Shown piece by piece: positions 1,281-55,040 of a DNA stretch of 55,653 nucleotides. Source of the DNA: Alphaproteobacteria bacterium (GTDB taxonomy: Bacteria > Pseudomonadota > Alphaproteobacteria > Micavibrionales > Micavibrionaceae); the NCBI GenBank assembly GCA_021776075.1, contig JAJFGQ010000024.1, positions 1 through 55,653 on the forward strand, in the 5' to 3' direction. The position numbers and the translations under genes were made by a program. The notes beneath the pieces are model-generated. The model saw only the letters and a program-made list of their open reading frames with translations. It was not told where the DNA came from and ran no database searches. The stretch's first letter is position 1; every line of letters begins with the position of its first letter.

Positions 1281-1454
1281 TATAGTTATTCCCATTAAGA
1301 ATAAGACATCGTCATGCCCGCTTTATGCGGGCATCCGGAAAAATAAAGTGCGCAGCTGTGCGGCGCTCATAACCAGACCCCCGCCGGTCTTATCCTGCTA
1401 TCGCAGGATCGCGGGGGTAACGATAGTGTCTTATTCTTAATGGGAATAACTATA
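1281..1454. mobile_element. MITE-like element, copy A (174 bp, perfect 28-bp TIRs)
   Basis: Positions 1281-1308 and 1427-1454 are perfect 28-base inverted repeats that begin TATAGTTATTCCC and end ...ACTATA. The core carries two further palindromes: CATGCCCGCTTTATGCGGGCAT, written in two halves at about 1313-1323 and 1324-1334, and a CTGCTATCGCAG stem near 1395-1406 flanked by CCCCCGC...GCGGGGG. There is no coding capacity. Ends of the form TATAG...CTATA with a likely TA target are known from IS630/Tc1-derived MITEs such as neisserial Correia elements; the relation here is inference. A second 174-bp copy with the same core is at 13217-13390. This copy lies between the ends of two convergent genes. 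Confidence 0.85.
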
Positions 1455-8762: not shown

Positions 8763-9033
8763 TATAGCCGTTCTCATTAAGAAGAAGACATTCTATCTAT
8801 AATCGTCATCCCGTTGGCGCACCCGTAAGGGTGCTGGCACGAACGGGATCCAAAAAAGGACAGCCAGCTTTCTGGCTGACATATATAGTTGTTTTCGTTA
8901 AGAATAGTACAATCGTCATTGCGAGCGCAGCGCAGCAATCCAGTCTTTTATATTCTAACTCTCTAGATTGCTTCGCTGCGCTCGCAATGACGATATATTT
9001 TAAAATGTCTTATTCTTCATGAGAACAACTATA
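8763..9033. mobile_element. Composite MITE-like element (copy B)
   Basis: This covers nearly all of the 310-base gap between the AAA+ gene and the next gene. One TATAG-type left end is at 8763-8790 and a second at 8884-8911. A right end, which ends ...ACTATA, is at 9006-9033. The inner unit (8884-9033, 150 bp) has as cargo an inverted repeat of GTCATTGCGAGCGCAGC type (left arm from about 8913, right arm ending about 8993). The outer stretch contains a different palindrome (CATCCCGTT...AACGGGAT). This looks like one element inserted next to or into another, or a unit that lost its right end. There is no protein-coding content. Confidence 0.7.
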
Positions 9034-13216: not shown

Positions 13217-13390
13217 TATAGTCGTTCTCGTTAAAAATAAGACATTGTCATGCCCGCTTTATGCGGGCATCCGGAAAAATAATGTGCGCCGCTGTGCTAT
13301 GCTTATAACCAGACCCCCGCCGGTCTTATCCTGCTATCGCAGGATCGCGGGGGTGACGATAGTGTCTTATTCTTAATCGAAATTACTATA
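13217..13390. mobile_element. MITE-like element, copy C (174 bp)
   Basis: Same length and core as the copy at 1281-1454. The left end 13217-13244 and right end 13363-13390 are 28-base inverted repeats with several mismatches (TATAGTCGTTCTC against ...AAATTACTATA). The interior shares the CATGCCCGC/GCGGGCAT stem, the CCAGACCCCCGCCGGTC block and the CTGCTATCGCAG stem with copy A almost base for base. It begins 15 bases after the stop of the asparaginase gene. It is a non-autonomous element with no coding capacity. Confidence 0.85.
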
Positions 13391-52811: not shown

Positions 52812-52828
52812 GGTAGCTTCCCCCTCCC

Positions 52829-52914
52829 CGTCATTCCGGCGCAAGCCGGAATCCATTCATAAACTTGCGCGGTGGGGATAAATGGACCCCGGTCTTCACC
52901 GGGGTGACGGAATG
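52829..52914. repeat. Intergenic palindromic repeats (REP-like)
   Basis: Two hairpins are seen: ATTCCGGCGCAAGCCGGAAT (about 52833-52852) and ACCCCGGTCTTCACCGGGGT (about 52887-52906), both with near-perfect stems. They lie between the methyltransferase gene and the flagellin promoter. They are of the GTCATTCCGG type of dispersed repeats and lack the 28-base ends of the MITEs. The rest of 52812-53103 holds the flagellin promoter and leader. Confidence 0.7.
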
Positions 52915-54864: not shown

Positions 54865-54898
54865 GAACCGGCGGGGAGAACTCCGCCGGTTCTTTTTT
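54865..54898 (+). terminator. Intrinsic terminator of flagellin
   Basis: GAACCGGCGG (54865-54874) pairs with CCGCCGGTTC (54883-54892), followed by six Ts. The apex GGAGAACT repeats that of the leader hairpin at 53046. It lies 34 bases after the flagellin stop. Confidence 0.9.
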
Positions 54899-55040
54899 AT
54901 AGTCATTTCCACATAAAACAGTCATACCCGCCTTGTGCGGGTATCCGGCAATAAGCAGCACGAAGCAAAGCCTTTCTCATAACCAGACCCCTGCCGTTTT
55001 TATCCTGCTATCGCAGGATCGCGGGGGTGACAAGATTAGT
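54898..55040. repeat. Decayed MITE-like element (copy D)
   Basis: It begins TATAGTCATTTCC directly at the flagellin terminator. The core matches copies A and C (CATACCCGCCTTGTGCGGGTAT, read as two arms; CATAACCAGACCCC; CTGCTATCGCAGGATCGCGGGGGTGAC). The left 28-base end is degenerate and the right end is missing. It occupies most of the 309-base space between flagellin and flbT. Confidence 0.7.

Follow-up and report, generated by a model that had tools for sequence, protein, structure and literature searches.

The 174-bp palindromic repeats found twice in the window (the whole 55,653-nucleotide stretch of DNA analysed here) very probably belong to a family of non-autonomous, IS630-type miniature inverted-repeat transposable elements (MITEs), which carry a modular hairpin cargo and would be moved in trans. 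The same ends are present on IS630 transposase elements of relatives, the TATAG...CTATA boundaries are sharp, and there are dozens of copies, all of which argue for IS630-type MITEs. The ends, the size (below about 300 bp, with no gene), the copy number, and the autonomous relatives fit this class. What is new is the cargo, a CGTC-tagged hairpin unit just inside each terminal inverted repeat (TIR), with both units pointing inward. In literature titles and abstracts, no description of IS630-type MITEs enclosing CGTC hairpin pairs was found.

In elements of type A, the left hairpin, CGTCATGCCCGC-loop-GCGGGCATCCGG, begins 1 base inside the left TIR. The second hairpin, which is nested, points inward, and bears the tag CGTCA, begins 4 bases inside the right TIR. 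Copy 1 (1281 to 1454, forward strand, type A, 174 bp) has 28-base TIRs at 1281 to 1308 (forward) and 1427 to 1454 (reverse). Its first CGTC-tagged unit (1310 to 1338, forward) has the form CGTCAT-stem-loop-stem-ATCCGG, and its second (1373 to 1422, reverse) has a nested stem and the tag CGTTA. Copy 2 (13217 to 13390, forward, type A, 174 bases) has the corresponding units at 13246 to 13274 (forward) and 13309 to 13358 (reverse); an asparaginase stop codon lies 15 bases before it, and the 3' end of recA is 262 bases off. A first-pass annotation of this DNA had described two copies of equal length whose 28-base TIRs are perfect in copy 1 and diverged in copy 2. Both points hold, since each copy spans 174 bases and Watson-Crick pairs form at 28 of 28 TIR positions in copy 1 versus 21 of 28 in copy 2. 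The same annotation was right that there are two hairpins but not that they are nested: they sit next to each other, and nesting is found within the second one alone.

With up to 3 mismatches, the 28-base end occurs 4 times in the window versus 0 times in 100 shuffles of the window, and the elements fold more strongly than shuffled sequences (z of -3.8 to -5.2). An Rfam scan of the window gave a tRNA as its sole match and assigned the element to no known RNA family. The window also contains a type 2 MITE of 150 bp (8884 to 9033, forward), in which TIRs of the same kind surround an inverted pair of GTCATTGCGAGC units. It is abutted by a truncated element (8763 to 8880, forward) that has a left TIR and a CGTCATCCCGTTGGC hairpin unit without a right TIR. 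In a decayed type A copy (54898 to 55040, forward) both units are present, the left TIR is partly readable, and the right TIR is gone, while an inverted pair of CGTC units at 52828 to 52914 has no recognisable TIR. A free CGTCACCCCGGTGAAGACCGGGAT palindrome lies slightly upstream of copy 1, at 1201 to 1226.

The genome that contains the window (2.29 Mb in 87 contigs, 93% complete) holds dozens of relatives of these copies, in agreement with the earlier proposal of a multicopy MITE family. A BLAST search with the element yields 57 matches, the first 33 of which (E up to 8.8e-12) are whole or partial elements, and a scan with the end pattern yields 46 matches versus 0 for a reversed-pattern control. 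When 15 copies are aligned, their first five bases have a mean pairwise identity of 0.92, which drops outside the element to 0.35 and then to about 0.25; identity falls likewise at the right-hand boundary. Thus, TATAG and CTATA are the boundaries of the repeat, and the proposed ends coincide with the limits of similarity. Element ends start with TA in 14 of the 15 copies. In full-length copies, 18 to 28 of the 28 TIR positions are paired; the arms have drifted apart in many of them, indicating that end pairing is not strictly kept. The compensating changes noted between the two copies extend to the family, as both sides have changed in 12 of 51 base pairs over 19 aligned copies, a number reached by 0 of 500 shuffles in a control that leaves relatedness in. 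Nine of these pairs are in the TIRs and 3 are in the inner stem of the second hairpin. Searches of a plasmid collection and a phage collection with the 174-bp element gave no match in either.

Candidate autonomous elements are found in relatives. The DDE_3 profile (PF13358) is found in 8 of 58 relatives, and a protein search with the transposase of locus L103 is positive in 7 of the 58. L103 (JAJDDE010000003.1, 3787 bases) contains an 892-bp insertion sequence (IS) at 938 to 1829, with ends of the MITE kind and two ORFs, and L107, in genome G017, contains an 894-base element with one end a single mismatch from the consensus. In both, the second ORF matches DDE_3 and, above its cut-off, NF033545, and the first matches HTH_Tnp_IS630. 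The right end of the L103 IS is identical to that of copy 2 at 27 of 28 positions and also codes for the C-terminus of the transposase (MSYS, stop). The L103 contig is titled Phycisphaerales, despite a ubiH-like gene beside the IS that is 83 to 86% identical to the alphaproteobacterial genome of the window. Because the ubiH-like protein matches two pieces from the own genome at 83% and 86% identity versus 53% over most of the protein in the next-best genome, the contig most likely comes from the same genus as the window's genome and is misbinned. A comparison of L103 with the own genome, made in looking for an empty site of the parent IS, showed that the ubiH-like gene is common to both and its neighbours are not. 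In the own genome, the DDE_3 profile search and the L103 transposase protein search each returned 0 matches. Thus, the earlier expectation of an IS630-type transposase with the same ends is borne out in relatives (L103 and L107), but not in the own genome.

The ends themselves are spread more widely. With 2 mismatches allowed, 24 of the 104 genomes from this bacterial family, representing 13 of 39 genera, contain the 28-base end, and an exact end scan of a large genome collection returned 4 contigs, three titled Alphaproteobacteria plus L103. In genome G001, the IS630 transposase is matched 24 times, for the most part by C-terminal fragments located where contigs end (e.g. L113 and L119) and bearing the end TATAGTTATTCCAATTAATAATTGCACA; this suggests that G001 carries an IS in many copies, at which the assembly breaks.

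In the proposed mechanism, an IS630-family transposase would bind the 28-base TIR (TATAGTNNTTNNNATTAAGAATAAGACA) and mobilise the element in trans, with TA sites as its probable targets. The autonomous element would now be absent from the own genome or have been lost in assembly; given that none is found there, the copies would be relics in this genome or would rely on an outside enzyme. The modular cargo would consist of one inward CGTC-tagged unit per TIR, taken from a pool of palindromes that also exist without TIRs. Copies would persist chiefly between convergent genes and right after stop codons, and upon transcription the two units would fold as stable stem-loops at mRNA 3' ends.

Among the matches listed for 17 joined-flank sites against 23 genomes, both flanks are found together only for L238 (G106), in G105, and the remaining sites gave one flank or short matches only. 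In G105, the 182-base MITE is absent together with 24 further bases, and the junction is not base-precise. The MITE is likewise absent from the place aligned to L238 in G102, G104, and G107. As judged from these alignments, the element at L238 is present in one genome and absent from the orthologous site in others, but the boundaries of the empty site, and with them the TA duplication looked for, are not visible to the base. The asparaginase gene, a candidate synteny anchor for an empty site, was found in 6 of 58 relatives, a number too small to build on.

Different hairpins occupy the same TIRs. In the own genome, such variants include type B (C67:2214-2386) as well as type 2, and a CGTCATCCCGTTGGC-like unit is present both at 8763 to 8880 of the window and on contig C45. 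Three copies, at window position 8884, C43:22264, and C50:43537, have exactly the same TIR and at least the next 8 bases in common and then differ in sequence, which suggests module exchange between elements. Across 56 MITEs with 112 ends, in a sample whose copies are related within a genome and not independent, a CGTC unit within 24 bases points inward at 52 of 112 ends and outward at 0 of 112, with 18 of 5600 for shuffled interiors. A second rule setting for CGTC units gives 45 inward, 0 outward, and 5 of 5600. The loci of G000, along with L055, were found partly via the interior, and those of other genera via the TIR. The same TIRs enclose CGTC units of different stems in seven genera (those of G000, G001, G014, G017, G068, G106, and G121), and also at L105.

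Same-kind TIRs are also found without a CGTC unit, in 8 of 10 MITEs of G017, 7 of 7 of G019, 3 of 3 of G086, and the single MITE in each of G093, G097, G103, and G104; transposition thus does not require the hairpins. In many of the G017 and G019 MITEs that lack a CGTC unit, the TIR sequence is repeated as a hairpin instead. Both genomes, G017 (L094, L096, L098, L100, L102, and L153) and G019 (L085, L088, L089, L093, L095, L097, and L099), have 140-164 bp MITEs with a subterminal inverted TIR repeat, through which an end forms its own hairpin, and with no CGTC unit. Elsewhere, an 88-base element whose ends (TATAGCTATTTCCAAAATTAATAAGCC) are similar to these but not the same lies directly against a type B MITE (G000:C8:58212-58299, in L071). 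At L145, L146, L147, and L030 (G000:C85, C3, and C21), a segment several hundred bases long is repeated and contains, between its duplicated flanks, a CGTC pair whose ends have diverged (ATTATTTGAATGAATAAGAGCACA). A second kind of TIR was considered for this pair and rejected, as the pair sits in a duplicated gene segment with diverged ends.

As the first-pass annotation had noted, the elements lie at gene 3' ends, mostly in convergent gaps and often near stop codons. A heuristic gene finder places 33 copies as follows: 15 between convergent genes, 10 tandem, 3 divergent, 4 lacking a flank, and 1 within a predicted frame. Convergent placement thus accounts for 15 of the 28 copies with both flanks versus 14.7% of the window's intergenic bases with the elements left out (binomial p 1.8e-6), where the background is one window and related copies are counted. 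At L013, 9 and 8 bases are left between the element and the two convergent stop codons, and at L078, -2 and 1; because these elements fill nearly all of the gap, neither transcript can end before reaching them. Such positions, together with the stable folds and the compensating changes, favor the idea that the repeats are bidirectional, BIME-like transcript-end elements, useful to the host and propagated and maintained because selection favors termination or stable mRNA 3' ends. This idea is somewhat unlikely, however. A search for intrinsic terminators at 1150 to 1720, around copy 1, found none, and TIR drift plus relatedness can account for much of the covariation. Furthermore, the pneumococcal RUP and IS elements have the same convergent bias, which the authors, in the excerpted text of PMC3049150, interpret as the mark of mobile parasites, and thus position alone is no proof of function. 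The 1150 to 1720 region has a single promoter-like site, with TATAGT as its -10 sequence, where 0.6 are expected by chance. From the sequence, the elements could plausibly act as two-way transcript-end structures, and tolerance of insertion at such sites would account for the positions equally well. That the hairpin units protect or end transcripts is possible, if doubtful.

Another alternative places mobility in the cargo: the inverted CGTC hairpin pair would be a NIME- or BIME-like mobile unit, moved by another enzyme, with the IS630 ends as passengers or flanking remnants. CGTC pairs without TIRs are indeed present in the own genome (window 52828-52914, L144, and L026), single units occur without the TIR pattern in relatives, and the own genome has one Y1_Tnp gene. 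This gene, the only Y1_Tnp match in the genome, encodes a RAYT-like Y1 transposase at a contig end (L318 3-614, G000:C30). However, it has no adjoining CGTC unit; the sole unit detected on its 4570-base contig is about 3.7 kb away, and a RAYT origin of the hairpins was rejected. In addition, similarity among the elements stops at TATAG rather than at CGTC, elements with TIRs and no CGTC unit are found in several genera, and some TIR-less pairs resemble decayed TIR elements (54898-55040; L145-L147). Mobility of the CGTC pair itself is consequently quite improbable. It is extremely improbable that the repeats are Correia-type elements of the neisserial family, the group to which the first-pass annotation likened their ends. 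The IS630 part of that comparison stands, given the transposases with the same ends in relatives, but the Correia part does not. As excerpted in PMC2229807 and PMC9778887, Correia/NEMIS elements of Neisseria are similar in their TATAG...CTATA ends, 26- to 28-base TIRs, size of 100 to 180 bp, and intergenic location. The likeness of the TIRs ends at TATAGT, though, beyond which most comparisons give no significant end similarity, and the core differs. The 26-28-base Correia repeat, TATAGTGGATTAA..., is not matched: against each of the four repeats in the excerpt of PMC9778887, at least 331 of 2000 shuffles are as similar as copy 1, and the lowest count for any tested end against those repeats is 20 of 2000, among 20 comparisons.

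With the repeats taken as IS630-type MITEs moved in trans, one may go further and imagine, although this is unlikely, that such MITEs in the family have repeatedly picked up pairs of scattered CGTC palindromes, with the tag always beside the TIR, and that ends and palindromes form a combinatorial system. Uptake would then have been favored by selection because a self-contained two-way hairpin cassette renders insertions downstream of genes harmless or beneficial, with IS630-type ends serving as one vehicle by which such palindromes spread. Intergenic palindromic repeats are common in bacteria, and what moves them is mostly unknown. A known kind of transposon end around palindromes, in a fixed arrangement and with different stems in seven genera, provides a concrete vehicle for their spread, and the series of elements with and without hairpins is a natural test set for whether the hairpins or the ends are needed.

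Among known systems, RUP of Streptococcus pneumoniae with IS630-Spn1 is similar in being short and non-coding, with IS630-like TIRs, TA ends, an autonomous IS with similar ends, and an excess between convergent genes (excerpts of PMC2229807 and PMC3049150). By analogy, the element works like RUP and is probably mobilised in trans. Unlike RUP, with 9 contiguous pairs in the excerpt of PMC2229807, the TIR here has 28 bases, the interior consists of two inward CGTC units that vary by type and genus, and no autonomous IS630 was found in the own genome. NIME/dRS3 of Neisseria also has two short, inverted palindromes around a short spacer, but the stems of the units read here do not follow the dRS3 pattern ATTCCC(N)8GGGAAT given in the excerpt of PMC9778887, and many of the pairs here lie between IS630-type ends. 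REP/BIME elements with RAYT likewise comprise tagged, intergenic hairpins in pairs of opposite orientation, but according to the excerpted PMC2817692 their tag is GTAG, whereas here it is CGTC and IS630 TIRs enclose the pairs. A TATAG-ended, MITE-like element of Thiomargarita also contains a hairpin of other origin; in the excerpt of PMC4853749 that one hairpin derives from a group I intron, in contrast to the inverted pair of dispersed palindromes here. Judged by the features compared, the elements are not Correia, NIME/dRS3, or REP/RAYT. They constitute a new family of IS630-type MITEs with an unusual modular cargo, and are otherwise a familiar kind of element.
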